Positions 18,366-40,807 of a stretch of DNA of 64,000 bases are shown here, in pieces; position 1 is the first letter of the stretch; each line of letters starts with the position of its first letter. The notes beneath the pieces are model-generated. The model saw only the letters and a list, made by a program, of their open reading frames with translations. It had not been told where the DNA came from and searched no databases. This DNA is from Yinghuangia soli (GTDB lineage Bacteria; Actinomycetota; Actinomycetes; Streptomycetales; Streptomycetaceae). The stretch is from contig NZ_JAKFHA010000005.1 in NCBI RefSeq assembly GCF_021502675.1, positions 1 through 64,000 on the forward strand, written 5' to 3'. Both the position numbers and the translations under genes were made by a program.

Positions 18366-18377
18366 GGGAGGCCTCGC

Positions 18378-19679: not shown

Positions 19680-19820
19680 ACCGGCCCTCGCACGGTAGGC
19701 CGGGCGGGCGCCGAGAACAAGCCCGACTGCCGGTGCGGAGTGCTGCGACACGTGCCGAGCTGGGCAGATGCGGAGGGCCCGGCCCGAGGTCCCGGCGGCG
19801 GTGTTCGCATAGCGCGAAGA

Positions 19821-19839
19821 CTTGACTGACTCGGTCAAG
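19821..19839 (+). promoter_or_regulatory. Inverted repeat overlapping a -35-like TTGACT before the acyl-CoA synthetase
   Basis: CTTGAC-TGACTCG-GTCAAG has perfect 6-bp arms. Its TTGACT could be a -35 element; 17 bases on is TTAGGG, a poor -10, which would place transcription start almost at the ATG (19858), so a leaderless mRNA is possible. A palindrome in this position is typical of TetR or FadR control of fatty-acid-like genes; the regulator is not identified. Confidence 0.4.
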
Positions 19840-19857
19840 CATTCTTAGGGTCCGCTC

Positions 19858-21561
19858 ATGGCGACCTCGACCTCCGGTTCCCCGTCCGGGACCCCCTCCG
19901 CAGCCGCGTCCGACCCGATGGCCGCGCTCACCGCGCCCGGCTCGCCGTTCGAGCTGGCCGAGGAGGACGTCCTCGGGGTACCGCTGCGCGTGCTGGCGAA
20001 CCGGCCGCGGTCGCTCTCCGAATTCGTGGCCCGCTCGGCCGGGTACGGCGACCGCGAGTACGTCGTGCACGACGACGGCACCCGCTGGACCTACGCCGAG
20101 CACGCCCGCGCGGTCGCCTCCGTGGCCGCCGCGCTGCGCGACCGGTACGGCGTCGAACCCGGCGACCGCGTCGCGATCCTCGCCGCGAACCGGCCCGAGT
20201 GGCTGATCACCTTCTGGGCGACGGTCTCGCTCGGCGCCGTGGCGGTCGGCATGAACGGCTGGTGGGCCGGCGACGAGATCCGCTACGGCCTCGCCGACTG
20301 CGAGCCCAAGGTGCTGGTCGCCGACCGCCGCCGCCTCGAACGCCTGCCCGACGCGACCGTCCCCGTGGTCGAGATGGAGTCCGGCTTCGCCGACCTCGTC
20401 CGGTACGCCCCGGACGCCGAGCTGCCGGCCGGCCCCGGCGACGAGGACGCCCCCGCCCTCATCCTCTACACGTCCGGCACCACCGGCCGCCCCAAGGGCG
20501 CGGTGCTCACCCACCGCAACGTCATCGCGATGCAGAACGTGCAGGCGCTCCTCGCCGCGCGCGCCATGGCCCACGTGCCCGCGGACCGCCGCCCGGCCTC
20601 GCCGCCGGCCGGCCGCTGGCTGGTCAACAGCCCCTTCTTCCACGTCTCCGGACTCCTCGCGGGCGCCGTCGCGGCTTTCGCGGACGGCCACACGATGGTC
20701 CTGTTCAGCGGCCGCTTCGACGTGCCCGCGGTGCTGGCCACCATCGAACGCGAGCGCTGCACGAACTGGTCCGTCGTCCCGACCGTCGGCTGGCGCGTGG
20801 TCAACCACCCCGACTCCGGCGCGTACGACCTCTCCTCGGTCGCCCGCCTCGGCGGCGGCAGCGCGGCCTTCGCCCCCGAGCTCGTCACCCGGCTCCAGCA
20901 GGTGTTCACCAACGCCAAGGGCGCGATGGGCGTCGGCTACGGCCTGACCGAGAGCGGCGGCGTGGCCACCTCTGCGGGCGCCGCGCAACTGGAGGCCGCG
21001 GTCGGCGCGATCGGCGCCGCGGTGCCGACCGTGCAGGTCGAGATCCGCGGCGAGGACGGCACGCGCCTCGCGGACGGCGAGGAAGGCGAGATCTGGATCC
21101 GCAGCCCCCTGGTCATGCGCGAGTACTGGCGCAACCCGGAGGCCACCGCGAAGTCCCTCACCGAGGACCGCTGGCTGCGCACCGGCGACCTCGGCCTCGA
21201 GCGCAACGGGCAGTTCTTCATGGCCACCCGCCGCTCCGACCTGATCCTGCGCGGCGGCGAGAACATCTACCCCGCCGAGATCGAGCACTGCCTCGACGCC
21301 CACCCGGACATCGCCGAATCCGTCGTGGTCGGCGTCCCGCACCCGGAACTCGGCGAAGAGGTCAAGGCCGTCGTGGTACCCAAGCCGGGCGGCGCGCTCA
21401 CACCCGAGACGCTGTCCGCGTACGTCGGCGAGCGCCTGGCGTACTACAAGGTGCCGAGCTACTGGGAGATCCGCACCGAGCCGCTGCCGCGCACCGCGAC
21501 CGGCAAGGTCATCCGCGCAGTCGTCACCGGCGCCAAGGCCGCGGACCTCGTCGAGGAGTAG
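19858..21561 (+). CDS. AMP-dependent acyl-CoA synthetase/ligase
   Basis: Class I adenylate-forming enzyme (567 residues) that activates a carboxylic acid with ATP and joins it to CoA. The P-loop-like YTSGTTGRPKG is at about residues 204-214, the A5 motif GYGLTES near 360, the A7/A8 region WLRTGDLGLERNGQFF with the hinge and RSDLILRGGENIYPAEIE, and the A10 lysine motif PRTATGKV near the C-terminus. All catalytic positions are intact. A 30-residue Ser/Pro/Ala-rich lead precedes the domain. Divergent from the amidohydrolase/aldolase operon, which suggests they serve one catabolic route. Substrate chain or ring type cannot be told. Confidence 0.93.
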   Translation: MATSTSGSPSGTPSAAASDPMAALTAPGSPFELAEEDVLGVPLRVLANRPRSLSEFVARSAGYGDREYVVHDDGTRWTYAEHARAVASVAAALRDRYGVEPGDRVAILAANRPEWLITFWATVSLGAVAVGMNGWWAGDEIRYGLADCEPKVLVADRRRLERLPDATVPVVEMESGFADLVRYAPDAELPAGPGDEDAPALILYTSGTTGRPKGAVLTHRNVIAMQNVQALLAARAMAHVPADRRPASPPAGRWLVNSPFFHVSGLLAGAVAAFADGHTMVLFSGRFDVPAVLATIERERCTNWSVVPTVGWRVVNHPDSGAYDLSSVARLGGGSAAFAPELVTRLQQVFTNAKGAMGVGYGLTESGGVATSAGAAQLEAAVGAIGAAVPTVQVEIRGEDGTRLADGEEGEIWIRSPLVMREYWRNPEATAKSLTEDRWLRTGDLGLERNGQFFMATRRSDLILRGGENIYPAEIEHCLDAHPDIAESVVVGVPHPELGEEVKAVVVPKPGGALTPETLSAYVGERLAYYKVPSYWEIRTEPLPRTATGKVIRAVVTGAKAADLVEE

Positions 21562-27021: not shown

Positions 27022-27465
27022 ATGGTCCGCCACCAGGAGGCGCACATCGGCCGCGGCGCGCTGCCGCGCGGACCCGGGGCCCGCTGGGCGTCGGCGGATT
27101 CCGTCGTGCCCGGGTCGGCCGGGCACGACGGCTACGACCTCCGCGACTTCTACCTCGACGTGCGGCTGGCCGCGGACGGCTCGTTCCGCGGCTCGCACAC
27201 CGCCTACATCATCGACGGCAAGGCGGCCGACGACCCCGCGGACGTCGACCGCTTCCGCTACCGCCGCTCACACGTCCTGCTCGGCTACGCGTACGGCCGG
27301 CTGGACGTGTTCGGCGGCAGCGGCGACATCACCATCGAGGGCTACGGCCACAGCCTCGTCCGCGTGCACCCGGGCCCCGGCACGCTGACCCTGCACCTGG
27401 ACGCGTCGGTGATCACCTACTGCCCGGCGATGTATACCCGCGCGGTGCTGGTACGTCGGACCTGA
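27022..27465 (+). CDS. Small protein of unknown function
   Basis: Not recognised. The 147-residue product begins at ATG 27022, 6 bases after AGGGGA, and has codon use like its neighbours. An Arg/Gly-rich lead is followed by [20 protein letters not shown] and [16 protein letters not shown], alternating hydrophobic and polar residues that suggest a compact beta-rich fold, and a hydrophobic end ([16 protein letters not shown]). No signal peptide or helix is seen. Its last 53 bp overlap the 3' end of the LAL regulator gene on the other strand. Function unknown. Confidence 0.65.
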
Positions 27466-30400
27466 CCAGGCACTCCGCCAGACCGTCGCGGTCGGTGCCG
27501 AGCTTGGCGTAGACCGCGGTCAGGTGCTTCTGCACGGTGCCGAGCTGGACCGCGAGTTCGCGGGCCACCGAGGTGTTCGACAGGCCGCGCACCACCAGTT
27601 CGGCGGTCTGGCGCTCGCGTGCGGTGAGCGCCTCGACGCCGGTCCGGTACGCCCGCCGCGGCCGTCCGCCGGCCGCCAGGAGCTCGGCCCTGGCCCGGAC
27701 GGCAAGCGCCTCCGCACCGCAGCGGACCGCCGCCTCGAGGCCCTCGCCGAGCCGCAGCCGGGCCTCGGTGATGCGTTTGGAGCGGCGCAGGGCCGCACCG
27801 AACTCGACCAGCGACAGGGCGTATTCGTACCGCGCGGGAGAGTCGGCGAGCCAGCGCACCGACTCGCCGAGCTTGGCCAGCCCCTCCGCGCCGCCGATGA
27901 GCTGCCCGGCCACCCGCAGGGTCTGGCCGAGCGTCGACGGCGCCCCGAAGACGTACGCCTGGCCGACCGCGCGCTGCGCCGCCCGGCGCGCCCCCGCCGG
28001 ATCCTCCTCGGCGAGGGCGAGCGCCAGGTACGGACGCCACGGGCACCACGCCGGGTTGCTCGCGCCGCGCGCGTCGAGCAACTGGCCCGCCTCGGCGAAG
28101 TCCTCGGCCGCCGCCGCGTACTGGTGCCGGGCCAGCCGCAGTTCGCCGCGCACGACCTGCGGCACCGGGAAGATCACGGCCTGCGGGAACGGTTCGCCGT
28201 ACCCGTAGCGGTCGGCGAGCTGCTCGGCCTCGTCGAGGCGTCCGATCGCGATCAGTATCTGCAGCAGCGTCCCGAGCGCGTACCAGCGGGCCGGGGCGTC
28301 CGGCCCGAGCCGGTCGGCCAGTTCCAGGCCCGCGCGGGCGCCCGCCTCCGCCTCGGCGAGCCGGCCCTGCCGGTACCGGATGTGCGCGAGCAGCGTGTGC
28401 CCGAACGACAGGTGCGTGCCGCGCCAGCCGCGCGCCTCCAGCTCGGCGATGCCGTCCTGGAAGAACGCCTCGGCCCGGTCCGGCTGGTCCGCGTACAGGA
28501 ACGCGAGCGCGGTCAGGATCGGGAACTCGAAGCCCCAGTCCTCGTCGACCCAGCGCAGCGGCGGGTTCATGGCCCGCTCCGCGTACGCGATGACCTGCAC
28601 CGCGGGGTCGCCGCGCACCACGCCGTACCAGGCCCGGATGCCCAGCAGGCAGCGCTCGGTGGTGTCCGCGCCGGCCAGCCGCCCGGCCAGCGACCGCAGC
28701 CGCCGGGCGCGGGCATGCGCCTCGGTGTCCTGGACCCAGAACAGCGCCCACAGGAAGTGCTCGGCCTGCAGCCGCAGCCGGGCCCGCGACAGGCGCGTGG
28801 TCCGCGCCTCCGCATCGACCAGATGGACCGCCTCGGCCATCCGGTCGTCGTGGGCGAGGGCCTTCGCCAGCCGGATCACTATGGCCTGCCGGATCGGCTG
28901 CGTCGGATGCGCGCAGGTCAGCGCCGCGTACAGGTGCTCGATCGCGGCCCGCGGGTCGTGCACGAAGGCGGCCAGCCCCAATTCGTACAGGACCGCTGTG
29001 CGTTCCTCTCCGAACGGGGGCTCGTTCAGCGCCCGCAGCAGGTTCCGGTACGCGGCATCCGGGGCGCCCGCCCGCAGGTCCTCCCACGCCGCGCTGCGCA
29101 GCCGCGCCACCACCCACGGGTCGCCCGACGGGTACGTCGCCAGCAGATGCGCGGCCGCCTGCGCGTCGTCGTGGCCGTCGCCGACCAGCAGCCGTGCGGC
29201 CCGCGCGTGCAGTGCGCCGCGGGCCTGCGGGGGTATGCGGCGGTACACCTCGGTGGCGATGGTCGGGTGCGCGAACTCCAGTTGCTCGTCGCCGGCCAGC
29301 ACCCGGACCGCGCGCAGCCGGTCGGCCGGTCCGACCGCGTCGTCCGCGGCGAGCCCGGCCAGCGACGCGGCCCGGCCGAGCGTCGCGTCGGCGCCGAGGA
29401 CCGCGACCGCGCGGGCCAGGCGCATCGCCTCGGAGCCGGTGCGCTCCAGGCGGGCCATCATGCCGCGGCCGACGATCGCGGCCGCGATCGCGTCGAGGTG
29501 CCGGGCGTTGGCCGCGGTCGGCTTGAGGTCGCGGTCCAGCATCTCGCCGATCAACTGGCCGACCACATAGGGGTTTCCGTCGGCCGACACGTGGCACTGC
29601 GCGCAGAACGCGTCGTCCGCGTGGTCGCCCAGCCGGGCCCGGACCAGCTCGGCGACGGCCTGGCCGGACAGCGGCGCCAGCATCAGCCGCTGCGGGCCGG
29701 CGAGTGCGGCCAGGTCGCCGAGCAGGTCGGTGTTCGGGGTCGGCTCCTCGGGCCGCCGGCTCACCACGACCAGAACCGGCATCGATTCGACGGACCGGGT
29801 GAACGCCTCCAGCCAGGCCAGCGACTCGCGGTCCGCCCAGTGCGCGTCGTCGACCAGCACCGCCATGCAGCCGCGGCGCTGGCTCAGGCCGGCCATCAGC
29901 CAGTCCAGTGCGTCGCGCACGCCCTGCGGGTCCGGCGGTGCCAGCTCGTCGTCCGGTGCGGCGGGGGCCAGGCCGACCGCGGGGGCGACCATGTCCCACC
30001 AGCCGCCGAGGAGTTCGTGCCGCTCGGCGTCGTCGCAGGCCACCAGCAGGCGGCGGAAGAGCTGGCGGACGACGTGGAACGCCCGGCCCTGCTCGCGCTC
30101 GCCGCCACGGGCGTACAGGACCGTGCAGCCGGACTCGGTGACGATGCGGCGGGTCGCGTCCATGAGCGTGGTCTTGCCGAGCCCGGCCGCACCCTCGAAC
30201 AGCAGTACGCTGCCGCGCTGACCGGTCCCGGCAGCCCCGAGCGGTCCCGGGACCCCGCCGATCGCGGGGCCGCCCGCGCCACCCGCACCCGTGCCGCTCG
30301 AACCGACCGAACCGACCGAGCCACCCGAACCGACCGGACCACCCGGACTGTCCGAGTCGCCCGAACCGGAACCGCCCGCCCCCTCGGCACCGCACAACCC

Positions 30401-30493
30401 GCGCACCAGCTCGCGCACAAGCGTCAGCTCGCGCCGACGCTCCAGCAGCGGCTCGTGTCCGGGATCCGGTGCGGCCGAGGCCGCACCGGTCAC
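27413..30493 (-). CDS. LAL-type (large ATP-binding) LuxR-family transcriptional regulator
   Basis: DNA-binding regulator with an ATPase module, 1026 residues. Walker A GAAGLGKTT is at about 101-109, Walker B VLVDDAHWAD about 100 residues later. The middle is a helical TPR-like region (REQGRAFHVV..., AIEHLYAALTCAHPTQ...). The C-terminus holds a LuxR-type helix-turn-helix at about 956-1010 (LTARERQTAELVVRGLSNTS...). A Gly/Ser-rich insert of some 50 residues (about 37-90) separates the first helix from Walker A and is absent in the paralogue. GTG 30493 overlaps the upstream paralogue stop by 4 bp (GTGA). The open frame further upstream is antisense-like shadow. Targets unknown; these regulators usually control secondary metabolism or carbon use. 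Confidence 0.92.
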   Translation of the reverse strand: MTGAASAAPDPGHEPLLERRRELTLVRELVRGLCGAEGAGGSGSGDSDSPGGPVGSGGSVGSVGSSGTGAGGAGGPAIGGVPGPLGAAGTGQRGSVLLFEGAAGLGKTTLMDATRRIVTESGCTVLYARGGEREQGRAFHVVRQLFRRLLVACDDAERHELLGGWWDMVAPAVGLAPAAPDDELAPPDPQGVRDALDWLMAGLSQRRGCMAVLVDDAHWADRESLAWLEAFTRSVESMPVLVVVSRRPEEPTPNTDLLGDLAALAGPQRLMLAPLSGQAVAELVRARLGDHADDAFCAQCHVSADGNPYVVGQLIGEMLDRDLKPTAANARHLDAIAAAIVGRGMMARLERTGSEAMRLARAVAVLGADATLGRAASLAGLAADDAVGPADRLRAVRVLAGDEQLEFAHPTIATEVYRRIPPQARGALHARAARLLVGDGHDDAQAAAHLLATYPSGDPWVVARLRSAAWEDLRAGAPDAAYRNLLRALNEPPFGEERTAVLYELGLAAFVHDPRAAIEHLYAALTCAHPTQPIRQAIVIRLAKALAHDDRMAEAVHLVDAEARTTRLSRARLRLQAEHFLWALFWVQDTEAHARARRLRSLAGRLAGADTTERCLLGIRAWYGVVRGDPAVQVIAYAERAMNPPLRWVDEDWGFEFPILTALAFLYADQPDRAEAFFQDGIAELEARGWRGTHLSFGHTLLAHIRYRQGRLAEAEAGARAGLELADRLGPDAPARWYALGTLLQILIAIGRLDEAEQLADRYGYGEPFPQAVIFPVPQVVRGELRLARHQYAAAAEDFAEAGQLLDARGASNPAWCPWRPYLALALAEEDPAGARRAAQRAVGQAYVFGAPSTLGQTLRVAGQLIGGAEGLAKLGESVRWLADSPARYEYALSLVEFGAALRRSKRITEARLRLGEGLEAAVRCGAEALAVRARAELLAAGGRPRRAYRTGVEALTARERQTAELVVRGLSNTSVARELAVQLGTVQKHLTAVYAKLGTDRDGLAECLVRSDVPAPRGYTSPGSR

Positions 30494-33375
30494 CGAATCG
30501 CTCCGGGGCCGCCGCCCAGCGCCCGCGAGGGCGGGAGTTCGCCGATGTCGACCAGCTCGGCGCGGGCCGCCTCGGCGAGTGCGTCCGCCCCGCACTCCAG
30601 TGCGACGTTCAGGCCTTCGAACAGCGTGTCCACGGCGTCCCGGTCGCCGAACTCGCGGCGCAGCCATATGCCGTACTCGACCAGCGTCAGGGCGTACTCG
30701 TACCGGGCATCGGAGTGTTCGAGCCACATCAGTGCGTCCTCGATCTTCGCGAGGCCCTTCTGCCCGCCCTCCAGCCGCCCGGTCACCCGCAGCGCCTGGC
30801 CCATCGCCGACGGCGCACCGAACCGGTACGCGCGCCGCAGCGCCTCGCTGGCGTGCTCGTACGCGGTCTCCGGGTCGTCGCCGGCCAGCGCCCGGGCGAG
30901 GTTCACCTTCCACGCGCAGAACGCCGGATTGGCCACGCCGCGCGCTTCCAGCTTCTCCCCGGCCTCGGTGAAGTCCTCCGCCGCGGACCGGTTCTCGCCG
31001 GTGGCGAGGCGCAACTCGCCGCGCACCGCCTGCGGGACGGGGAAGACCACCGCGTTCGGGAACGGCTTGCCGAACTGGTACCGCTCCGCGAGCGCCAGGG
31101 CCTGGGGTATGTCGCCGCGCGCGATCAGCACTTCGATCAGCGGCCCGAGCGAGTACCAGGGCAGCGGCAGTCCCTCGGGCAGCCGGTCCGACAGTGCGAG
31201 CGCGCGCCGGGCATCGTGTTCCGCGGCGGCGAGCTTGCCCTGCCGGTAGCGGACCAGGCTGCGCATGGCATGCGCGTACGACAGTTGGGTGCCGCTCCAG
31301 CCGTGCGACTCCAGTTCCTTCACGCCGGCGCTGAACAGCTGCTCGGCCCGGTCGTTCTTGTCGCAGTACATGTAGACGAGCGCGAGCAGGCTGGGGATCT
31401 CGAATCCCCAGTCCTCGTCCGTCCAGTTCAGGCCGGGTCCCCACGCCTGGTCCGCGCTGGCCAGCACCTGGACCATCGGGTCGCCGCGCATGACGCCGTA
31501 CCAGGCGCGCAGCGCCAGCAGGCAGCGCTCGGTGCGGTTGTTGCCCTCCAGGCGCAGCACCAGGTTCTTGAGCCGCCGGGCACGCGCCGGGTAGTCGGGG
31601 TCGTCGACCCAGAAGACCGCCCACAGGAAGTGCTCGGCTTGCAGCCGCAGCCGGCTGGCGGACGCATTGGCGGCCTGCGCCTCGGTGTCCAGGAGTTCGA
31701 CGGCTTCCTTGATCTGGTCGGTGTAGCCCAGCGCGCGGGAGAGCTGCAGCACGATCTGCTCGCGCAGCTGGCGCACCTCGGAGTCGGCCTCCAGCGCCTT
31801 GCGCAGTTCTTCGATCGCGCCCTGCGGCGAGGTGCTGAACAGCGCCCGGCCCAGCTCGTAGTGCACCGCGGCGCGGTCGGCGGGCCGCGGTGGCTCCTCC
31901 ATGGCGCGCTGCAGGCAGCGCAGTGCGGACTCGGGCGCACCGGCCCGCTTCTCCTGGTCGGCGGCGGCCCGCAGCTGGTCGACGATCCACTGGTCGTTGC
32001 GCGGCCGGGTGGCCAGCAGGTGGAAGACCGCCGAGCGGGCGTCGCGGCCGTCCCTGACCAGCAGCCGGGCGGCATTGGCGTGCAGCGAACTGCGCGCGTG
32101 CGAGGGGATGTTGTCGTAGACCGCGGCGGCGATCAGCGGGTGCACGAAGCCCAGCACGTCCTGGTTGACCAGGATCGCCGCGGCCCGCAGCCGGTCCGCG
32201 ACCTCGCCTACCTGGTGCACGTCGACCTCGGCCAGGTCCGCGACGCGGACCACGGTCGCGTCGCTGCCGAGGATCGCCACCGCACGGGCGACCGCCAAGG
32301 TGGCCGCGCCCATGCTCTCCAGGCGCAGCGACAGTTTCTCGCCGATCTGCGCGGCGGCGATCGAGGCCAGGCGGCCTGCGTGGGCGTCCACCGGCGCCAG
32401 CCGTAAGCGCTTGAACTCGCGCAGTGTCGCCCACAGGACGAACGGGCCGCCGCCGCTGACCTCGTAGCAGCGCTCCCGGAAGCCCTCGTCGACCGCGGGC
32501 CCCAGCGCCATGTGCACCATCTGCGCGCTGCCCGTGCGGGACAGCGGTCCCAGCCGGAGGCGCTGCGCGCGGTCCAGCGTGGCCAGGGTGCGGAGCAGCG
32601 GGCTGACCTCGGTGACTTCCTCGGTACGCCGGGCCACCAGGAGCAGGACCGGCCAATTGTGCAGGCGCTGCGCGAAGCTCGTGATCCAGGAGAGCGATTC
32701 GGCGTCCGCCCAGTGCGCGTCGTCCAGGATCATGACGATCGGTCCCCGGTTCCGGGTGAGCGAGGTCATGAGCCAGTCGAGGGCGTCGCTGATGGCGAGC
32801 CGGTCGGGCGTGGAGCCCGCCGCGGCGGGGCACAGGCCCAGCGCCGGGGCGATGATGTCGAACCAGCTGCCGAGGAGCGCGGTGCGCTCGGCGTCGGTGT
32901 ATCCGGCCAGCAGCTTGTAGAAGAGTTCCTTGACCACGAGGAACGAGCGGGTCTGCTCACGCTCGCCGCCCTTGGCGAGGAGCACCGTGCAGTGGTTCTC
33001 CACGGCTATCCGGCGGGCCTCGTCCAGGATGGTGGTCTTGCCCCAGCCGGCCCGGCTCTCCACCAGCAGCAGTTCACCGCGGTGCACCTGGTCCGCGCCG
33101 GAGTCCGCGCGGGCGTGGGCGCACAGATTCTCGATCACCGCGCGTACCGCGGCCAGTTCGTTGTCCCGCTCCAGCACCGGGGGCTGTGCGAGCAGCGCTT
33201 CCGAGCCGGCCCAGTCGGAGACGTCGACGGCCGCCCCACCGCGCACGTCGATACGGCGCGCTCCCTCTGCGCGCCGTTCGAGCGCTCCCGACGAGCGCCC
33301 TTCCGGCGGAATATCCGCCGTCGTCCCACTGGGCCGCGGGGTCCCGGAACCCGGCGATCCGTTCGCTTCTGCCAT
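30490..33375 (-). CDS. LAL-like ATPase/TPR protein lacking the LuxR DNA-binding domain
   Basis: Paralogue of the next gene across nearly its whole length (for example ERCLLALRAWYGVMRGDP against ERCLLGIRAWYGVVRGDP), 961 residues. Walker A ESRAGWGKTT is at 106-115 and Walker B VMILDDAHWAD near 215, so ATP binding looks intact. The protein stops at ARAELVDIGELPPSR...GAIR, exactly where the paralogue continues into its helix-turn-helix. No frameshifted HTH is visible after the stop, because the next gene begins there. ATG 33375 follows GGGGAAGG; the frame is open to 34812 but this is shadow. The 4-bp overlap implies both are made together. I infer a heteromeric sensor or regulator pair, one subunit with and one without DNA binding. 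Confidence 0.9.
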   Translation of the reverse strand: MAEANGSPGSGTPRPSGTTADIPPEGRSSGALERRAEGARRIDVRGGAAVDVSDWAGSEALLAQPPVLERDNELAAVRAVIENLCAHARADSGADQVHRGELLLVESRAGWGKTTILDEARRIAVENHCTVLLAKGGEREQTRSFLVVKELFYKLLAGYTDAERTALLGSWFDIIAPALGLCPAAAGSTPDRLAISDALDWLMTSLTRNRGPIVMILDDAHWADAESLSWITSFAQRLHNWPVLLLVARRTEEVTEVSPLLRTLATLDRAQRLRLGPLSRTGSAQMVHMALGPAVDEGFRERCYEVSGGGPFVLWATLREFKRLRLAPVDAHAGRLASIAAAQIGEKLSLRLESMGAATLAVARAVAILGSDATVVRVADLAEVDVHQVGEVADRLRAAAILVNQDVLGFVHPLIAAAVYDNIPSHARSSLHANAARLLVRDGRDARSAVFHLLATRPRNDQWIVDQLRAAADQEKRAGAPESALRCLQRAMEEPPRPADRAAVHYELGRALFSTSPQGAIEELRKALEADSEVRQLREQIVLQLSRALGYTDQIKEAVELLDTEAQAANASASRLRLQAEHFLWAVFWVDDPDYPARARRLKNLVLRLEGNNRTERCLLALRAWYGVMRGDPMVQVLASADQAWGPGLNWTDEDWGFEIPSLLALVYMYCDKNDRAEQLFSAGVKELESHGWSGTQLSYAHAMRSLVRYRQGKLAAAEHDARRALALSDRLPEGLPLPWYSLGPLIEVLIARGDIPQALALAERYQFGKPFPNAVVFPVPQAVRGELRLATGENRSAAEDFTEAGEKLEARGVANPAFCAWKVNLARALAGDDPETAYEHASEALRRAYRFGAPSAMGQALRVTGRLEGGQKGLAKIEDALMWLEHSDARYEYALTLVEYGIWLRREFGDRDAVDTLFEGLNVALECGADALAEAARAELVDIGELPPSRALGGGPGAIR

Positions 33376-33798
33376 GACGGCACCTTCCCCACGAGGGTGC
33401 ACGCGCGGCCCGATGGCGGTCGGCCCTACGCGTATGCAAATCCCATCCTGGCGCATGAAGGTCACCCGATGTGCCCGCCTTGACACAGAAGTCCTCATCG
33501 ATTGCGGCGATCCGGTCCGCCGAGCGGTGCGACTCGGTCGTTGGTCCCGCCCGGATCGGTCACCGCACGGGCAAGGAAGATCAAGCCCCGCATCCGTCCA
33601 GTCACCATCTCCCCGCCCCGGACCGCGTTTCGCGCGTTTCCCGCGCAACCTGACCGGAATTGACCACAACCGACAACAAGCCCTGCGCGTCCATGGCCCT
33701 TGACTCCTCATCAAGTCCCGCTTCCAATGGGGCACTCGCGCGGGGTGCCAGGACCCCGCGGCCAGTCGGACAAGGGCGACCGGAAGGGGCACGACGCC
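33376..33798. other. Divergent promoter region between LAL pair and thiolase operon
   Basis: No gene is seen in these 423 bp. A consensus -35 TTGACA stands at 33480-33485 on the plus strand but I find no -10 at the right distance. An inverted repeat CTTGA-CTCCTCA-TCAAG lies at 33699-33715, 84-100 bp upstream of the thiolase-like start, resembling in spacing the one before the acyl-CoA synthetase at 19821. Confidence 0.35.
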
Positions 33799-34980
33799 AT
33801 GGCACCGGAGTCCCATCCGTACCGGGACGTGGTCGTCGCCGGGGTCTTCAACACCGCGCAGGCCCGCCGGCTGCCCGGCCACACCTCCGCGTCGATCACC
33901 GTCGAGGCGGTGCACGGAGCCCTGGCCGACGCCGGACTCGGCCTCGACGACGTGGACGGGGTGAGCGCCGCCGACCTCTCCGCGCGGCTGATCCACGACC
34001 TCCGCCTCGGCCCGGCCTGGCGCGGCACGCAGTACGGACTCGGCATGATCGCCGAGGCCGCCCTCGCGATCTCCGCGGGCATGTGCGACGTGGCGGTGGT
34101 GGCGTCCGGTGAGGCCGGCATCCACACCGACCGCGCCGCGACCGCGCCGTGGACCCGCCCGGAGAACGAGTTCGTCATCCCGTGGGGCCTGTTCACCGCG
34201 GCCGAGTTCGCCCTGGTGGCCCGCCGCCACATGATCGAATACGGCACCACGGAAGACCAGATGGCGACCGTCGCGGCCACCATCCGCAACAACGGCCACG
34301 CCAACCCCGAAGCCGTCTACCACGGCCGCGGCCCCTACACCCCCGCCGACATCCGCGCCTCGCGTCCCATCGCCGAGCCCTTCCACCTGCTCGACTGCGC
34401 GATGACCTCGGAAGGCGGCTGCGCGCTCGTCCTCACCCGCGCCGACCGCGCCCGCGACCTGCGCGCCACACCTGTCTACCTGCTCGGCATGGCCGCCGAC
34501 AGTTACGGCCCGGCCTACCAGCACCCGCCCGCGTACGACCTGGCCGGACGCACTGCGCGGGACGCCGACGACCGGGCCGGCACCGTCGGCCGCCGCGCCG
34601 CGGACCGCGCGTTCCGCACCGCCCGCCTGGGCCGCACCGACGTCGACGTCCTGGAGCTGTACGACCCCTTCTCCTTCGAGGTCATCCGGCAACTGGAGGC
34701 CTTCGGCTTCTGCGCCCCCGGAGAGGGCGGCCCGTTCGTCGCGGACGGGCACATCGCCCCGGACGGCAAGTACCCCGCCACCACCGACGGCGGCCTCATG
34801 TCCTACAGCCACGCCGGCTCCAACCCGCAGATGCTCCAGCGCGCCATCCGCGCCGTGCAGCAGGTGCGCGGCACCTGCGCGTCCACGCAGATTCCCGGGG
34901 CCCGGGTGGCCCTCGCCAGCGCAGGCGGCTCCGGCGCGCTGTTCAACCAGGTCGCGCTGTTCGGAACGGAAAGGCCCTGA
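33799..34980 (+). CDS. Thiolase-superfamily protein without the nucleophilic cysteine (lipid-transfer/aldolase type)
   Basis: A 393-residue member of the SCP-x/lipid-transfer thiolase branch. In true thiolases the nucleophilic Cys lies 20 residues before the Asp of the G-x-x-D-V turn; here that turn is AGMCDVAVV with Asp97, and the matching residue is Thr77 (GTQYGLGMIAEAALA). The second-domain His region (MSYSHAGSNP) is kept. The next gene is a DUF35 protein, the same pairing as Ltp2 with the DUF35 domain of ChsH2, where a thiolase fold works as a retro-aldolase in steroid side-chain breakdown. That role is inference here. ATG 33799 follows GGAAGGGG. First gene of an operon with DUF35 and a CoA transferase. 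Confidence 0.88.
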   Translation: MAPESHPYRDVVVAGVFNTAQARRLPGHTSASITVEAVHGALADAGLGLDDVDGVSAADLSARLIHDLRLGPAWRGTQYGLGMIAEAALAISAGMCDVAVVASGEAGIHTDRAATAPWTRPENEFVIPWGLFTAAEFALVARRHMIEYGTTEDQMATVAATIRNNGHANPEAVYHGRGPYTPADIRASRPIAEPFHLLDCAMTSEGGCALVLTRADRARDLRATPVYLLGMAADSYGPAYQHPPAYDLAGRTARDADDRAGTVGRRAADRAFRTARLGRTDVDVLELYDPFSFEVIRQLEAFGFCAPGEGGPFVADGHIAPDGKYPATTDGGLMSYSHAGSNPQMLQRAIRAVQQVRGTCASTQIPGARVALASAGGSGALFNQVALFGTERP

Positions 34981-34982
34981 CC

Positions 34983-35396
34983 GTGCTCGAACCCCAGACC
35001 GGCGTACCCCTCAACCCCGTCACCCCGCTCACCGCGCCCTTCTGGGACGGCTGCGCGGAAGGGGAACTGCGCTACCAGCGCTGCACCGCGTGCGGCACCG
35101 CCAACTTCACGCCCACCGACCTGTGCCGCGGCTGCACGTCGCGCGAGCTCGAATGGCGCGTGAGCGCCGGGCTCGGCACCGTCTACAGCTGGACCGTCGT
35201 GCACCGGCCGGTCACCCCCAGCTTCACCACCCCGTACGCGGTCGCGATCGTCGACCTCGACGAGGGCTACCGCATGCTCACCAACCTGATCGGCGTCGAG
35301 GCGGACGCGGTACGCGAGGGCATGCGCGTACGCGTCGACCTGCACGGCGTGGGCGGCGAGCGCGTCCTGCCGTACTTCCGCCCGCAGTTCCCCTGA
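34983..35396 (+). CDS. DUF35 Zn-ribbon/OB-fold protein
   Basis: A 137-residue partner protein with an N-terminal zinc ribbon (CTAC...CRGC, about residues 36-53) and an OB-fold (GTVYSWTVVHRP...) that in related systems binds acyl-CoA for a thiolase-fold partner. GTG 34983 begins 2 bp after the thiolase-like stop and follows GGAAAGG, so the two are translationally coupled and probably form a complex. The family is also called ChsH2-C or acyl-CoA-associated DUF35. Confidence 0.92.
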   Translation: MLEPQTGVPLNPVTPLTAPFWDGCAEGELRYQRCTACGTANFTPTDLCRGCTSRELEWRVSAGLGTVYSWTVVHRPVTPSFTTPYAVAIVDLDEGYRMLTNLIGVEADAVREGMRVRVDLHGVGGERVLPYFRPQFP

Positions 35397-35419
35397 GCCA
35401 CTCCCGGAGGTCGATCGCG

Positions 35420-37792
35420 TTGGCATCCACCGCTCCGCTGGCGGGCCGTACCGTCATCGAACTCTCCTACGGCGTCCCGGGCGGCTACTGCGCCAAACTC
35501 CTGCGCGATGCGGGTGCGGACGTCGTCAAGGCGGAGGCGGGCGCCGGCGACCCGCTGCGCCGCGGCCGCGACGGCATCGCACCGGACGGCACCGACTCGG
35601 CACTGTTCCGCTACCTGACCGCGGGGAAGCGCTTCAGCGCCGTCTCCGACCGCGGCACGTTCGTGCCCGGCTCCGCGGCCGCCGGATTCCCGGAGCGCCC
35701 CGACATCCTCATCGAGGACGGCTGCCTCGCCGACGCCGACCTGGACGCATGGCGCACCGCGTACCCGGCCCTGGTCATCGTCTCGATCACCCCGTACGGC
35801 CGCACCGGGCCGCACGCCGGGCGCCCGGCCACCGAGTTCACGCTGCAGGCGTCCTGCGGCTCGACCGGCGGCCGCGGGCTGGCCGGCGAGATGCCGCTGC
35901 AGGCCGGCGGGCACATCGGCGAATGGGTCACCGGCGGCTACGCGGCCGTCGCCGCCCTCGCCGCCGCCCGCGCGGCCCGCCGCACCGGCCGCGGCGACCA
36001 CGCCGACGTGTCGATGCTGGAGAGCATGGCGTCGACCATGCAGACGTACGGATCCGTCGCGGCCTCGCTCTTCCGGGCTGCCGGAGCCGAGTTCGTGAGC
36101 GGCCGCACCCTGGAGATCCCCTCGATCGAACCGACCGCGGACGGCTGGGTCGGCTTCTGCCTGGGCACCGGCCAGCAGCTGCAGGACTTCCTGCTCATGA
36201 TCGAACGCCCCGACCTGCTGGACGACCCGCGCTTCTCGACGATGGGCGAACGCGCCAGGCACCGCGAGGAGTTCCTCGACATCGTGCGCACCTGGACGAC
36301 CAAGCACCGCACCGCCGACATCGTCGCCTTCGCGGGCGCGCTCCGCATCCCCGTCGCCGACGTCGGGACACCCTCCTCGCTGCCCGGCATCGACCACTTC
36401 GTCGAACGCGGCGTCTTCGTGCCCAACCCGCAGGGCGGCTTCCTGCAACCACGGGTGCCGTACCGCATCGGCGACTTCCGCGGCGTCCCGTTCGACGCAC
36501 CCGCACCCGGGCCGACGCCGGCAGCCGCACCGCAAGCCGACGCCGAAGCGGCGATCCCGCCCGCCGACGCGGACGCACGCCCCCTCGCCGGCCTCCGCGT
36601 CCTCGACCTCACCGCATTCTGGGCCGGTCCCAGCGCCACCATGGCACTTGCCGCGCTCGGCGCCGACGTCGTCAAGGTCGAGGCGCACAAGCGCCCCGAC
36701 GGCATGCGGTTCGCGTCCGCCCGCAAGCCCACCGACGAACTGTGGTGGGAATGGGGCATGGTGTATTTCGGCGCCAACCCCGCCAAGCGCGGCATCACCC
36801 TTGACCTGGGCACTCCCGAAGGCCACGACCTCGTCCTGCGCCTCGCCGAGACCGCCGACGTGGTGATCGAGAACTTCTCGCCGCGGGTCATGGACAACCT
36901 CGGTCTCACCTGGGACACGCTGCACGCCCGCAACGAACGCCTCATCCTGCTGCGCATGCCCGCGTTCGGCCTGGACGGCCCGTGGCGCGACCGCACCGGC
37001 TTCGCGCAGACCATGGAGCAGGTCTCCGGCATGGCCTGGATGACCGGCCGCGCCGACGGCCCGCCGCTCATCCCGCGCGGCCCGTGCGACCCCAACGCCG
37101 GTACGCACGCGGTGTTCGCGCTGCTCGCCGCACTCGAGGAGCGCGACCGCACCGGCACCGGCACGATGATCGAGTCCACCATGGTCGAGGCCACCCTCAA
37201 CGTCGCCGCCGAGGCGCTGGTCGCCTGGACCGCGGAGGGCCGCGAGGTACGCCGCGACGGCAACCGCGGCGCGGGCGCCGCCCCGCAGGGCGTCTACCGC
37301 TGCGCCGGCCCGGACTCCTGGCTGGCCCTCGCCGTCGAGACCGACGCGCACTGGCAGGCACTCGTCGGCCTCGCCTCCGCCGACCTGCCCTGGACCGGCA
37401 GCGAGGACCTGGCCGCCCGCCGCGCCGCCCACGACGCGATCGACGCCGCCCTGGACGCCTGGTGCGCGGACCGCGACGCCGACCGCCTCGCCGCCGAACT
37501 GCGCGACGCAGGAATCCCGGCCGCGGTCGTGGTCCCGCCCGCCGCGATCGAGACCGACGAGCAACTGGAGCACCGCGGCTTCCTCAACCGCGTCGTCCAC
37601 CCCGTCGCGGGCGAACACCGCGTCCCGGGACTCCCGTTCCGCCTCGCCTCGATCCCCGGCCCTTGGCTCACCACCGCCGCCCCGACCCTGGGCCAGCACA
37701 CCGCGGAGATACTGACCGGCGAACTAGGTCTCACCGACTCCGACCTGGCCGATCTGACCACCCGCAACATCACCGGCACCCGCCCCTTCTGA
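35420..37792 (+). CDS. Double-domain CoA transferase family III (CaiB/BaiF) protein
   Basis: Two CaiB-type domains are joined in one 790-residue chain (about 8-370 and 390-790), each starting with the ADVVK(A/V)E motif (AGADVVKAEAG and LGADVVKVEAH). Such double proteins move CoA between acyl groups or racemise 2-methylacyl-CoA. In the ordinary family the catalytic residue is Asp in a D-V-S-x-x-D context; here both domains show Glu (DVSMLESMA and STMVEATLN), as in some members. The start is TTG 35420, 9 bases after GGAGG; no ATG or GTG is better. Third gene of the thiolase-like/DUF35 operon, a set typical of side-chain or branched-acid degradation. Exact substrate unknown. Confidence 0.88.
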   Translation: MASTAPLAGRTVIELSYGVPGGYCAKLLRDAGADVVKAEAGAGDPLRRGRDGIAPDGTDSALFRYLTAGKRFSAVSDRGTFVPGSAAAGFPERPDILIEDGCLADADLDAWRTAYPALVIVSITPYGRTGPHAGRPATEFTLQASCGSTGGRGLAGEMPLQAGGHIGEWVTGGYAAVAALAAARAARRTGRGDHADVSMLESMASTMQTYGSVAASLFRAAGAEFVSGRTLEIPSIEPTADGWVGFCLGTGQQLQDFLLMIERPDLLDDPRFSTMGERARHREEFLDIVRTWTTKHRTADIVAFAGALRIPVADVGTPSSLPGIDHFVERGVFVPNPQGGFLQPRVPYRIGDFRGVPFDAPAPGPTPAAAPQADAEAAIPPADADARPLAGLRVLDLTAFWAGPSATMALAALGADVVKVEAHKRPDGMRFASARKPTDELWWEWGMVYFGANPAKRGITLDLGTPEGHDLVLRLAETADVVIENFSPRVMDNLGLTWDTLHARNERLILLRMPAFGLDGPWRDRTGFAQTMEQVSGMAWMTGRADGPPLIPRGPCDPNAGTHAVFALLAALEERDRTGTGTMIESTMVEATLNVAAEALVAWTAEGREVRRDGNRGAGAAPQGVYRCAGPDSWLALAVETDAHWQALVGLASADLPWTGSEDLAARRAAHDAIDAALDAWCADRDADRLAAELRDAGIPAAVVVPPAAIETDEQLEHRGFLNRVVHPVAGEHRVPGLPFRLASIPGPWLTTAAPTLGQHTAEILTGELGLTDSDLADLTTRNITGTRPF

Positions 37793-37807
37793 GGAGCACG
37801 GCAGCAC

Positions 37808-37909
37808 ATGGGCAGCCCCGACACCGTCCAAGCCCTCAGCGCCTCGGCAGGCGTATCTGGGGCGCTGCCTACAACAAGATCCTCCGTGGTGCCGTCGACC
37901 GCGCCCTGA
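37808..37909 (+). CDS. Possible 33-codon small ORF after the CoA transferase
   Basis: ATG 37808 follows GAGGAG by 9 bases, directly after the CoA-transferase stop (37792). The product, MGSPDTVQALSASAGVSGAL..., has no recognisable features. It overlaps the 3' end of the FAD oxidoreductase gene on the other strand, and that makes it doubtful. Confidence 0.25.
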   Translation: MGSPDTVQALSASAGVSGALPTTRSSVVPSTAP

Positions 37910-38834
37910 ACGGGATCGCGGTGCCGGCGAAGGCCTGACGAGGGGATGGCGGGCGGCCGTGGGCGAACCGGCGCAGGGCGAAGTCGGCTGCGGGGACATC
38001 AGGGTCCGTGCTGGCGCCCTCGCACAGCAGGTCGGCGATCAGCGTGCCGACCGCGGGAGAGGTGGCGTAGCCGTGCCCGCCGAAGCCGGCTGCCACGAAG
38101 AGCCCTTCCGGGCCCGCGGGGCCGATGACCGGGGCGAAGCCCGGAGTGGCGTCGTGGCAACCGGCGTACAGCGACGCGAACGACGCGTCCGGCAGGTCGA
38201 CGCCCAGCGGTGCGACCAGCGCCGGGCTCCACGGACCTGCCGCCACGACCACGGTGCCCGCGGCGATTTCCTGCCCGTCGGCCAGGCGTACCCCGGTCAC
38301 CCGGTCGCGGGACGCGGTCAGCGCGGCGACCGGAGCATGCTGCCGGATCCGCGCCCCCGCGCGCATCGCGGCGCGCCCGAATGCGTGCGCGGTCCGGTGC
38401 GCGTCCCCGTACCCGCCGCGCGGTTCGTACGCGAACGCCGCGAAGTCCTTCAGCTCGGCCGCCGGCCGCAGCCGCGCCGCGTCGTCGCGGCCGACCAGGT
38501 ACACGTCGATGCCGAGCGCCCGCTGCATCGCGACGCCGGCCTCCAGCGCGCGCACGTCCAGCGGACCGACGCCGACCAGGTGGCCGGTCCGCCGGAACCC
38601 CACGCTCGCACCGAGGATTTCCTCCGCCTTCTCGAAGATCTGCAGGCTCCGCCACGCCATCGCGGCAGACGAAGGGGTCCCGTAGCGACAGTGCACGACG
38701 CCGCTCGACATGCCGGTGGCGCCGGGGCCGACCGTGCCGCGTTCGAGGACCAGGACGTCCCGCATGCCGCGTTCGGCCAGCGCCCAGGCGGCCGCCATGC
38801 CCTCCAGGCCGCCGCCGACGATCACCACGTCCAC
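37869..38834 (-). CDS. FAD-dependent oxidoreductase (DAO family), internally shortened
   Basis: The 321-residue protein carries the Rossmann FAD motif VDVVIVGGGLEGMAAAWALAERG at its N-terminus and the C-terminal DAO signature (GLFVAAGFGGHGYATSPAVG). Amino-acid and amine oxidases of this kind usually have about 370-400 residues. Here LGVDLPD passes directly to SFASLYAGCHDATPGFAPVIGP. About 70-90 residues of the substrate-binding sheet region that normally lie between are absent. GTG 38834 follows GGAGG by 8 bases; the frame is open to 38948. It is convergent with the CoA-transferase operon. It may be a shortened enzyme or a decaying one; the frame itself is intact. Confidence 0.8.
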   Translation of the reverse strand: MDVVIVGGGLEGMAAAWALAERGMRDVLVLERGTVGPGATGMSSGVVHCRYGTPSSAAMAWRSLQIFEKAEEILGASVGFRRTGHLVGVGPLDVRALEAGVAMQRALGIDVYLVGRDDAARLRPAAELKDFAAFAYEPRGGYGDAHRTAHAFGRAAMRAGARIRQHAPVAALTASRDRVTGVRLADGQEIAAGTVVVAAGPWSPALVAPLGVDLPDASFASLYAGCHDATPGFAPVIGPAGPEGLFVAAGFGGHGYATSPAVGTLIADLLCEGASTDPDVPAADFALRRFAHGRPPSPRQAFAGTAIPFRARSTAPRRILL

Positions 38835-39128
38835 GATGCTGCCTCCGCGCCGCATTCCGGTAGCGGTCCTCGCGCCGCGCCCGGGAACCACGACGCGCCC
38901 GCGGGGCAGAGGCGCTGCGTACGGCGCAGGGGTCCGCGTGGGTGCCATGGCTTCGCATCCTTTCGTCCACTACCAGGAACGTTTGTCTCTTTTGAGTAGA
39001 CCCAGGAGGCATTTCCGGATGAGGGCAGTCGAGTAACGGCGCGGTTACATTCCGTGCAGGCAATCCGCCGAATGAGGGGCTGCGCACGGCTCTGGAAGTC
39101 GTATCGTCGGACCGCTACGGTCGCGCGC

Positions 39129-39524
39129 ATGGATGCTGCAGCGACGGTCGACGAGTTCATCAAGGCGTGGGGCCGGCTCGACCCGGACGAGTTGGCCGGG
39201 TACTTCACCGAGGACGCCACGTACCACAACATCCCGATCATGCCGGTGACCGGACGCGAGGCGATCCGGGACTTCATCGCCGGCTTCGTCGGGCCTTTCA
39301 CCGGGGCCGAGTTCACCGTGCACCACCAGGCGGTGAACGGCGACACCGTGCTGAACGAGCGCACCGACGTCTTCACGTTCCCGAACGGGAACACGCTGGA
39401 GATCCTTGTCATGGGCGTCTTCGAACTGCGCGACGGCAAGATCCACGCCTGGCGCGACTACTTCGACCTGGCCGCGGTGACCGACGCCTTGGCGAAGAAC
39501 TCCGGTCCTGCCGCAGGGGCCTGA
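39129..39524 (+). CDS. Limonene-1,2-epoxide hydrolase-like (NTF2-fold) protein
   Basis: The 131-residue protein matches the small cone-shaped LEH/SnoaL-like fold. The residues that in limonene epoxide hydrolase form the Asp-Arg-Asp charge relay are present: NERTDVF (Arg and Asp) and WRDYFD (Asp). A role in hydrolysing an epoxide is therefore plausible; it could also be another NTF2-fold enzyme. ATG 39129 is preferred over the GTG 25 codons upstream, whose extra residues are unrelated. It ends about 30 bp before a strong terminator. Confidence 0.85.
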   Translation: MDAAATVDEFIKAWGRLDPDELAGYFTEDATYHNIPIMPVTGREAIRDFIAGFVGPFTGAEFTVHHQAVNGDTVLNERTDVFTFPNGNTLEILVMGVFELRDGKIHAWRDYFDLAAVTDALAKNSGPAAGA

Positions 39525-39552
39525 CGGACAGTCGGCCGATCCCGGATGAACC

Positions 39553-39594
39553 AAGGGCCGGTCGGGCATCCCTGCGGACGCCCGACCGGCCCTT
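39553..39594. terminator. Bidirectional terminator between LEH-like and DUF4396 genes
   Basis: A perfect 15-bp stem (39553-39567 with 39580-39594) with a 12-base loop lies between convergent stops. Confidence 0.85.
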
Positions 39595-39623
39595 GCTTGT
39601 TCCTTGCTTGTTCCTTGCTCGTC
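39591..39623. repeat. 11-bp tandem repeat, about three copies
   Basis: CCTTGCTTGTT occurs at 39591 and 39602, then CCTTGCTCGTC at 39613. It abuts the terminator in the gap between two convergent genes. Confidence 0.75.
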
Positions 39624-39668
39624 TCCTGCTCGCCCCGGTCCCGGCGGCTGCCGGTGGTTCCGGTCCGG

Positions 39669-40553
39669 TCAGTGCATCGAGTGCACGACCGCGTGGCCCT
39701 TGCCGCGGGCGATCAGCGCCTTGTTGACCGGCGTGGTGATCACGAAGGCAAGGGCGAACGCCCCGGCCAGCGCGCCCCAGAAGAGGCCGTCGCCGAGCCC
39801 GGAGTCCATCGCGCCCGGGATCGCCATCATGAAGCCGTTGTCGATGACCTCCATCACGATGATCGACACGGTGTCCGCGGCCAGCGCCACCTTGATCATG
39901 GTGCCGAACGGCAGGCCTGCCTTGCGGATGCCGAACATGGTCAGCGCGTAGCCGAAGAAGAACGCCAGGCCGACCGCGAGCGCGATGGTCGCCAGGTTGC
40001 TCCAGCCGAGTGCGGTGCCGATCGCGAGACCGAGCACCTCGCCGATGGCGCAGCCGGTGAGGCAGTGCAGCGTGGCGAGGGCGGCCATCCGCCAGGAGAC
40101 CGGGCCGTGGCCGTGTCCGTGTCCGTGGTGTTCGTGGCCGCCTGCGTGGGAGGCGTGGTCGGCATGCCCGGCGTGCTCTGCGTGGTCGGCATGGGCTGCG
40201 TGCTGGGCGTGCTGGGCGTGCTGCGCCTGGTCGCTGTGCGCGGCGTGCTCGCCGTGCTGCCCGTGCTCGCCATGCCCCTCGTGGTTGGCGTGGTCCCCGT
40301 GCCCGGCATGCTCACCGTGCCCGGCGTGGTGCCCGTGATGCCCGTGGTGCCCCGCGTGGGCCCCCTGTTCATCGGGCACCGCGTCCGGGACGTGTTCGCC
40401 ATGTCCGGCGTGGCCTGTGTGGTCGACGTGCGCCCCGTGGCCCCCATGGCCTTCGTGGCCCGCATGCCCGCCGTGGTGCGCGTGTCCCGCATGGTCCGCG
40501 TGCGCGCCGGCGCTCGCGCCGTGCTGGTGCTGCTGCTGCGTCGAGTTGCTCAT
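39669..40553 (-). CDS. DUF4396 membrane protein with a very histidine-rich N-terminal domain
   Basis: The 294-residue protein starts with about 145 residues dominated by His, Gly and Ala in GHAGH- and AHADH-like repeats, ending in HEHHGHGHGHG. It continues into a four-helix DUF4396 domain with cysteines (LATLHCLTGCAIGEVLG). The His tract is a likely metal-binding region, for copper, nickel or zinc; the membrane part suggests transport or sensing. Orthologues of the DUF4396 domain often lie near copper genes. ATG 40553 is the clear start; an open frame to 40646 is less likely. Control is suggested by the palindrome-flanked promoter just upstream. Function remains unassigned. Confidence 0.88.
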   Translation of the reverse strand: MSNSTQQQHQHGASAGAHADHAGHAHHGGHAGHEGHGGHGAHVDHTGHAGHGEHVPDAVPDEQGAHAGHHGHHGHHAGHGEHAGHGDHANHEGHGEHGQHGEHAAHSDQAQHAQHAQHAAHADHAEHAGHADHASHAGGHEHHGHGHGHGPVSWRMAALATLHCLTGCAIGEVLGLAIGTALGWSNLATIALAVGLAFFFGYALTMFGIRKAGLPFGTMIKVALAADTVSIIVMEVIDNGFMMAIPGAMDSGLGDGLFWGALAGAFALAFVITTPVNKALIARGKGHAVVHSMH

Positions 40554-40585
40554 CGTGGTCCCGCCCTGTCTTCGCCGGTCTGCCC

Positions 40586-40662: not shown

Positions 40663-40807
40663 CCTATTCCCTGTCCGGTACGCGCGATTCGGCTAGCGCA
40701 GCGCCGGTAGGACCGGGTATCCGCCTGCCTCTTGGTAGCGTGTGGCGCGCCCGTTCGGCGGCGTGCGGAGGCCCGGGGGACCGGCCGGCGAGGGTGGAGA
40801 CGATCCG

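Follow-up and report, generated by a model that had tools for sequence, protein, structure and literature searches.

A translationally coupled pair of LAL-type genes in Yinghuangia with the helix-turn-helix in one partner only: a possible two-part STAND regulator

The window analysed here, the first 64,000 nucleotides of contig NZ_JAKFHA010000005.1 of Yinghuangia soli (Streptomycetaceae), encodes on its reverse strand two adjacent, related proteins of the LAL type (large ATP-binding regulators of the LuxR family), of which only the downstream one carries a C-terminal LuxR-type helix-turn-helix (HTH). We propose, at roughly even odds (probability about 0.5), that they form a two-part regulator of the STAND class (signal transduction ATPases with numerous domains; LAL/MalT type), in which an HTH-less modulator, probably an attenuating one, accompanies a DNA-binding partner. 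As part of the same explanation, and at the same odds, the pair would stem from a tandem duplication within the Yinghuangia lineage, after which the upstream copy would have lost the LuxR HTH while retaining its nucleotide switch and TPR sensor, and the downstream copy would have kept the HTH. All three Yinghuangia genomes examined have the pair, its genes tightly spaced on one strand, with their order unchanged and the upstream HTH missing, and the end of the tetratricopeptide repeat (TPR) region of the upstream protein is under a constraint that other HTH-less clades of this subfamily lack.

Anatomy of the two genes

The upstream gene opens with an ATG at 33375, preceded by ggggaagg, and closes with a TGA stop at 30492-30490; the downstream gene starts with the GTG at 30493 and its stop ends at 27413 (Table 1). 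The original prediction, made from the letters of this stretch, had described adjacent LAL paralogues joined by a GTGA overlap and sharing ATPase and TPR regions, with an HTH in one partner only and the upstream protein ending at the HTH boundary. The open reading frames (ORFs), Pfam and the alignment bear this out. AAA_16 is found in both proteins (52.3 bits upstream, 50.7 bits downstream), whose alignment, at 50-51% identity, begins ahead of Walker A and covers the whole TPR region. The C-terminus of the upstream protein falls at the point where the downstream protein enters its HTH. GerE scores 34.7 bits against a cut-off of 23.5 in the downstream protein; hmmscan against Pfam at E values up to 1 found no GerE in the upstream protein. 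An HTH hidden inside the upstream protein was looked for in the same way and none was seen, and one hidden past its stop is ruled out, since in each of the three genomes the codons that follow are already those with which the downstream gene begins.

The upstream protein runs from a disordered N-terminus through an AAA/NOD part (NOD, nucleotide-binding oligomerization domain) and a winged-helix region to a TPR superhelix. LALs are recognised by large size, Walker A and B motifs and a C-terminal LuxR HTH: the downstream protein has all of these, with GKTT and DD present, and the upstream protein has the size and the Walker motifs without the HTH. The layout of a MalT-type STAND, in which a NOD with its AAA part and a winged helix bearing the HP motif precedes a TPR superhelix, is found by motifs and models, and the upstream protein, as a paralogue of a DNA-binding regulator that lacks the HTH, shares this trait with the HTH-less modulators of the TrlR, CerN and FleT type. 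The Yinghuangia upstream copies retain the GKTT of Walker A, the DD of Walker B, a conserved Arg and the HP motif of the winged helix. The Walker B region of the window's upstream protein reads LDDAHW in the motif table, and DDAHW has become DDVQW in one of the three genomes.

The recognition segment of the downstream LuxR HTH, GTVQKHLTAVYAKLGTD, is identical across all three congeners. Within its own genome this HTH is among the weaker ones, at 39.9 bits and rank 55 of 62. A search of that genome (9.7 Mb, 91 contigs) showed the two proteins to be mutual closest relatives by far, the next match having an E value of 8.6e-19. Another tandem LAL pair lies in the same genome (G000:C13:101411-107022), with GerE scores of 60.7 and 60.2 bits; with both HTHs strong, it is an internal control showing that a tandem arrangement of LALs does not entail loss of the HTH.

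The Gly/Ser-rich insert that the original prediction placed before the downstream Walker A is real in the window protein and predicted to be disordered (predicted local distance difference test below 50 for residues 36-91). It has no counterpart in either congener in the alignment, however, and is therefore a strain-level low-complexity expansion that carries no weight; a functional Gly/Ser linker is ruled out on the same ground.

Table 1. Coordinates of the gene pair, its features and its surroundings in the window
Feature	Positions	Strand	Basis or remark
Upstream HTH-less LAL-derived STAND protein, 961 aa	33375-30490	-	ORF, Pfam, alignment, model
Downstream HTH-bearing LAL, 1026 aa	30493-27413	-	ORF, Pfam, alignment, model
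GTGA overlap, upstream stop/downstream start	30490-30493	-	sequence
Walker A region of upstream protein, ESRAGWGKTT (retains GKTT, first Gly substituted)	33031-33060	-	
TPR end of upstream protein, residues 831-941	30553-30885	-	most constrained block, most fixed partner differences
Gly/Ser-rich low-complexity insert before downstream Walker A, residues ~36-91	30221-30388	-	
Walker A region of downstream protein, EGAAGLGKTT	30167-30196	-	
LuxR-type HTH (GerE) of downstream protein, residues 955-1000	27494-27631	-	Pfam
Conserved block 5' of the pair in three genomes, candidate promoter/operator	33441-33496	-	three-genome alignment
Second conserved block in divergent intergenic region	33697-33728		three-genome alignment; no strand
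Thiolase-like lipid-transfer protein	33799-34980	+	possible target
ChsH2-type OB-fold protein	34983-35396	+	possible target
Fused CoA-transferase III	35420-37792	+	possible target

Conservation in the genus

An HTH still present in an orthologous upstream gene, the finding that would have reduced this copy to a plain truncation, did not turn up: in all three Yinghuangia genomes the upstream protein is without the HTH and the downstream protein has it. Since the pair is in all three, it is not a strain-specific truncation, and with the HTH absent and the frame open each time a sequencing error is also ruled out. The genes meet in a GTGA in the window genome and in Y. seranimata, and as TAG, 2 nt and GTG in the third genome. 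Past the last conserved TPR residue the upstream protein has a tail of 20 residues, and its two congeners have tails of 20 and 21. On a tree of 86 proteins the upstream and the downstream proteins of Yinghuangia, three of each, form sister clades with full support in the Shimodaira-Hasegawa-like approximate likelihood-ratio test (100*).

Selection and the end of the TPR region

Across the three genomes the frame of the upstream protein stays open at 69-73% identity. Ratios of nonsynonymous to synonymous divergence (dN/dS), which are rough because the Nei-Gojobori method was applied at about 75% GC, lie in the range 0.35-0.43 for the upstream gene, against 0.25-0.27 for its partner; the upstream protein is, judged by these ratios, under purifying selection. 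Within it the TPR end stands out, with 16 variable columns in 111 against 284 in 733 elsewhere (Fisher 2e-7) and a dN/dS of 0.10. As dS in the block is an ordinary 0.62, low mutation is ruled out as the cause. Gene conversion is ruled out too, the partners being 53% identical there and 38-61% in other blocks. Fixed differences between upstream and downstream proteins are concentrated in the same block (28/111 columns against 62/734 elsewhere, p 1.6e-6). In the downstream protein the corresponding block shows no significant contrast (27/111 variable columns against 214/733, p 0.31), and its dN/dS of 0.17 is the lowest of that copy. The upstream pattern is that of an apparently specialised, protected surface, not of decay.

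The ratio of divergence at the TPR end to divergence in the rest of the protein was compared across twelve clades. The Yinghuangia upstream proteins have a ratio of 0.36 and the downstream proteins one of 0.82; six further HTH-bearing clades range over 0.75-1.52. Four further HTH-less clades range over 1.23-2.13, and in these the TPR end is, of the seven blocks compared, the one conserved least. From this opposite pattern it follows that the Yinghuangia upstream copy has a constraint that other HTH-less clades lack. Among divergence-matched pairs, the counts of which are not independent, the three upstream pairs lie at 0.32-0.42, while 658 pairs from other clades have a minimum of 0.45, a 5% point of 1.01 and a median of 1.41, and 34 pairs of other HTH-less proteins span 0.82-1.89. 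The block is thus usually variable across clades, whether the HTH is present or not, and its constraint belongs in part to the Yinghuangia lineage and is most pronounced in the copy without the HTH.

Loss of the HTH across the LAL subfamily

A relative at E <= 1e-70 was found in 258 of 297 Streptomycetaceae genomes, and 80 loci were taken from the listed matches of these 258, a choice that favours better matches. The loci hold 90 LAL-like ORFs, which with the two of the window make 92; two fragments were skipped, leaving 90 proteins for comparison. Four broken or cut proteins (L067, L070, L124 and L134) were left out of the tree of 86, which was built by a quick method with the HTH columns excluded and is unrooted. 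Measured from the last conserved TPR residue, the tails of the 90 proteins form two groups, one of 0-36 residues and one of 73-116 residues with an HTH-like segment. On the tree, 30 of the 86 proteins are HTH-less, and the HTH-bearing and HTH-less labels need 10 changes, 9 of them forced by starred branches. All 33 HTH-less proteins of the motif table retain GKT and DD.

Even where present, the HTH in this LAL subfamily is often worn. Ten of the 57 HTH-bearing tails were run against Pfam: the two from Yinghuangia scored 39.7 and 40.9 bits, seven scored 19.7-31.7 and one (L089) gave no match. In L089 and L094, scored as HTH-bearing by tail length despite a collapsed HTH, the helix-turn-helix core is deleted and the following YRKLGTDRxGL segment retained, so that the HTH appears to be caught in collapse. 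In a class-wide scan 26 of the 28 matches listed from other families reach at least residue 901 of the 934-residue query, into the HTH, and this suggests that the domain was lost rather than gained.

The genomes of two other genera, g6 and g9, were surveyed for the kinds of LAL that they contain. HTH status was read from the end of a match on the downstream protein (1026-residue numbering; HTH-bearing from 990, HTH-less at 930-970) for matches at E <= 1e-70, with 23 candidates scored per genome in g6 and 7 in g9, and genomes may hold more distant LALs beyond the counted matches. The 35 g6 genomes comprise 13 with HTH-bearing members only, 8 with both kinds, 12 with HTH-less members only and 2 with no match; for the 111 g9 genomes the figures are 27, 23, 46 and 11, with 4 ambiguous. 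A general rule that HTH-less copies accompany HTH-bearing ones is therefore not borne out, and from a missing HTH alone an HTH-bearing partner cannot be deduced. Examples of HTH-less-only LALs in these sets are L075, L119 and L121, and the last two adjoin what appear, by eye, to be protocatechuate dioxygenase, PcaB and PcaL genes. Six other tandem pairs were found in g6 (L058-L063). The second frame opens 73-177 nt past the first stop in three of them, in two the first in-frame start lies 90 nt past it, and in one there is none within about 117 nt; several have, read by eye, a terminator-like inverted repeat past the first gene.

Many of the relatives stand next to terpene synthase genes. By clustering, 33 of the 80 loci do so (25 loci with cluster c2, 8 with cluster c16, each of the latter with a P450 of cluster c12), and one representative each of c2 and c16 was confirmed as Terpene_syn_C_2 (for example L098 2535-3698 and L120 6927-7937). 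Thirty terpene-synthase loci have a LAL in the tree, and 29 of these LALs are HTH-bearing, L131 being the one that is not. This suggests that such subfamily members are regulators of terpene clusters, a comparison that phylogeny confounds.

Predicted structures

AlphaFold models of the two proteins were built from 7 sequences and reached predicted TM-scores of 0.58 and 0.50, so that they are usable for domain order only. Both predict an AAA core, a winged-helix region and a TPR superhelix, to which the downstream model adds a four-helix HTH at 958-1011. Residues 570-954 of the upstream model resemble domain III of MalT (1hz4; Z 23.0, root-mean-square deviation 4.6, 334 residues), and residues ~57-456 resemble STAND/AAA cores (2qen, 2fna, CED-4 and plant nucleotide-binding leucine-rich repeat receptors, NLRs). 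In Foldseek the downstream model matches the STAND 6mfv best and has MalT (8bob) in third place, with TM-scores that are low over the whole query. A sequence search of the PDB gave no match for the upstream protein at E values up to 0.1; for the downstream protein the matches were limited to the HTH domains of other proteins.

Intergenic region and neighbouring genes

The divergent intergenic region contains two blocks conserved in the three genomes. An inverted repeat, TTGACTCCTCATCAA (TTGA-N7-TCAA), lies at 33700-33714 within the second block and is a candidate operator; in two of the three genomes it extends to CTTGA-N7-TCAAG. The window contains one such pattern against 0.07 expected, for a pattern chosen with the alignment already in view; among 100 shuffles, 6 also contained one. 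Across the intergenic region Y. seranimata carries the thiolase-like, OB-fold and CoA-transferase genes at 88, 92 and 74% identity.

The stretch 33799-41743 looks catabolic, with thiolase, ChsH2-type OB-fold, CoA-transferase, FAD oxidoreductase, SnoaL-like and IclR-type regulator genes, and so does 17598-21561, whose genes were judged from sequence only. The sole tRNA call of the window (Ala, 96 nt, 5567-5662) lies inside an ABC-transporter-like gene (5399-6382) and is therefore probably false.

Discussion

How might two such proteins work together? STAND proteins work by multimerising in the ATP state, according to passages of PMC4381067 and PMC6468293; portions of PMC6711710 describe heteromers as frequent among duplicated genes in yeast, and excerpts of PMC11655674 report HTH-less paralogues acting on HTH-bearing proteins (CerN on CerM, TrlR on TraR, FleT on FleQ). 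The multimerisation of STAND proteins and these three precedents favour the role of a modulator for the upstream protein. Both proteins would be made together from one message and would co-assemble through their homologous NODs into mixed multimers. Only the downstream protein carries an HTH, and its partner would therefore change the number or the geometry of the DNA-binding heads: the upstream subunit, through its specialised TPR end, would set according to a signal how many HTHs the assembly presents, and so may modulate, most likely attenuate, its DNA-binding partner. The constrained block may bind a ligand, the partner or both. A more far-reaching version, which we hold only tentatively, is that the HTH-less LAL has acquired a novel TPR face under strong constraint, with which it senses a signal or holds its partner, that mixed multimers set the number of DNA-binding heads, and that the pair is a bacterial counterpart of paired sensor and executor STANDs. 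The likely targets would be the divergent thiolase, OB-fold and CoA-transferase genes together with the pair's own promoter.

The chief competing explanation, which we consider possible if rather doubtful, is that the HTH-less protein works on its own as a STAND ATPase, sensing a ligand and acting on a target that is neither DNA nor its neighbour, co-translation being a leftover of duplication and HTH deletion. It accords well with the recurrent loss of the HTH (at least nine forced label changes among the 86 proteins), with HTH-less proteins as the sole close member found in 12 of 35 g6 and 46 of 111 g9 genomes, and with the GKT and DD kept in every HTH-less protein of the motif table; yet it does not account for a TPR end so much more conserved than in the four other HTH-less clades, nor for an overlap or 2-nt spacing kept in three genomes. 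That the pair is a matter of dosage or coupling alone, the upstream gene bringing ribosomes to the downstream gene or being a redundant duplicate kept by polarity, is improbable. The GTGA overlap, the downstream GTG start and the faster evolution of the upstream copy would suit it, but polarity would not conserve a protein, and dN/dS is 0.35-0.43 overall and 0.10 at the TPR end. We give hardly any credence to a decaying relic, a truncated pseudogene on its way out: the HTH is gone and the overall rate is raised, as such a relic would have it, whereas three frames remain open at 69-73% identity with their motifs kept, and the end adjoining the truncation is the most conserved part, a pattern of selection that already contradicts decay.

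Several observations weigh against the two-part regulator as well. The arrangement was found in one genus and three genomes; among the matches listed from 35 g6, 111 g9, 297 family and 296 class genomes, the family and class scans scoring two candidates per genome, no other genus showed an HTH-less LAL immediately ahead of an HTH-bearing one. All six tandem pairs of g6 have the HTH region in both copies. An HTH-less protein is the sole close family member found in 58 of the 146 g6 and g9 genomes, and such members therefore do something without an HTH-bearing partner. The upstream copy evolves faster overall than the downstream one and has lost the first Gly of Walker A in two of three genomes. 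The constraint on the TPR end is not wholly its own: one other HTH-bearing clade has a ratio of 0.75, and two downstream pairs, at 0.79 and 0.83, fall under the 5% point of other pairs, so that the downstream partner shares part of the constraint, which may partly predate the loss of the HTH. The block could also bind a ligand or a third protein instead of the partner. Eight eukaryotic TPR chains outrank MalT domain III among the matches of the upstream model (Z 23.1-25.6), and the MalT match therefore shows a TPR superhelix rather than kinship. Of the divergent genes, the stretch fetched from the third genome contains the OB-fold gene alone, which makes the guess at the targets a weak one.

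Thus the heteromeric regulator of the original prediction stands in part: sister clades, purifying selection and the constrained TPR end support it, but the 58 genomes with HTH-less copies alone do not. Its description as ATP-sensing does not follow from this, ATP being the switch nucleotide of STAND proteins in general.

The C-terminal HTH is what defines a LAL, yet this subfamily has lost it repeatedly, and many Streptomycetaceae genomes seem to keep only the HTH-less version, which raises the question of what a transcription regulator does without its DNA-binding domain. The Yinghuangia pair is favourable for that question, with both copies in one coupled unit and the TPR end as the place to look. 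If the heteromer is real, subunit mixing would be a mode of control for LAL/MalT-type activators. A search of the open-access literature found no description of a coupled HTH-less/HTH-bearing LAL pair, and the case would, if true, be the first among LAL/MalT-type regulators as far as the papers listed there show; HTH-less modulators are already known, and the pair would be a new variation on them.

Comparison with known systems

The downstream protein has the same order of parts as MalT of E. coli: NOD, winged helix, TPR superhelix and C-terminal LuxR HTH. In MalT the TPR domain (domain III) binds the inducer and sits just before the HTH. MalT is a single protein, however, and here an HTH-less paralogue is encoded in front; sections of PMC10427625 describe the sequestration of MalT by unrelated proteins such as MalY. 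The actinomycete LALs PikD, RapH, NysRI/RIII and AmphRI/RIII resemble the downstream protein in size, Walker motifs and C-terminal LuxR HTH, and several LAL genes can share one cluster, as parts of PMC3282765, PMC9774167 and PMC9942304 relate. The present case differs from them in an upstream protein without the defining HTH and in adjoining thiolase and CoA-transferase genes. NysRII/AmphRII of the nystatin and amphotericin clusters was considered as a precedent and nothing was made of it: PMC3282765 names NysRI/RIII and AmphRI/RIII, and NysRII is missing from the domain figure of PMC9942304, yet passages in PMC9942304 and PMC9774167 describe NysRII as a LAL.

The pairs TrlR/TraR, CerN/CerM and FleT/FleQ likewise set a paralogue without a DNA-binding domain beside a DNA-binding one, with an interaction that in Yinghuangia we infer indirectly, from the constraint and the fixed partner differences at the TPR end. 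FleQ is an enhancer-binding protein. Their sensor domains are unrelated to those of the LALs, being AHL-binding (acyl-homoserine lactone) in the autoinducer LuxR pairs TrlR/TraR and CerN/CerM, and in Yinghuangia, unlike in TrlR, CerN or FleT, two large STAND ATPases are joined in one translationally coupled unit. In PMC11655674 the HTH-less paralogues of all three pairs act through hetero-oligomers, and CerM and CerN have neighbouring locus numbers.

Eukaryotic immunity offers a looser parallel, in that labour may be divided in a similar way between two STAND paralogues of which one has the output domain. Paired NLRs and NAIP/NLRC4 are such pairs of sensor and executor. The output in Yinghuangia would be transcription via a LuxR HTH, and the likeness is one of analogy only.

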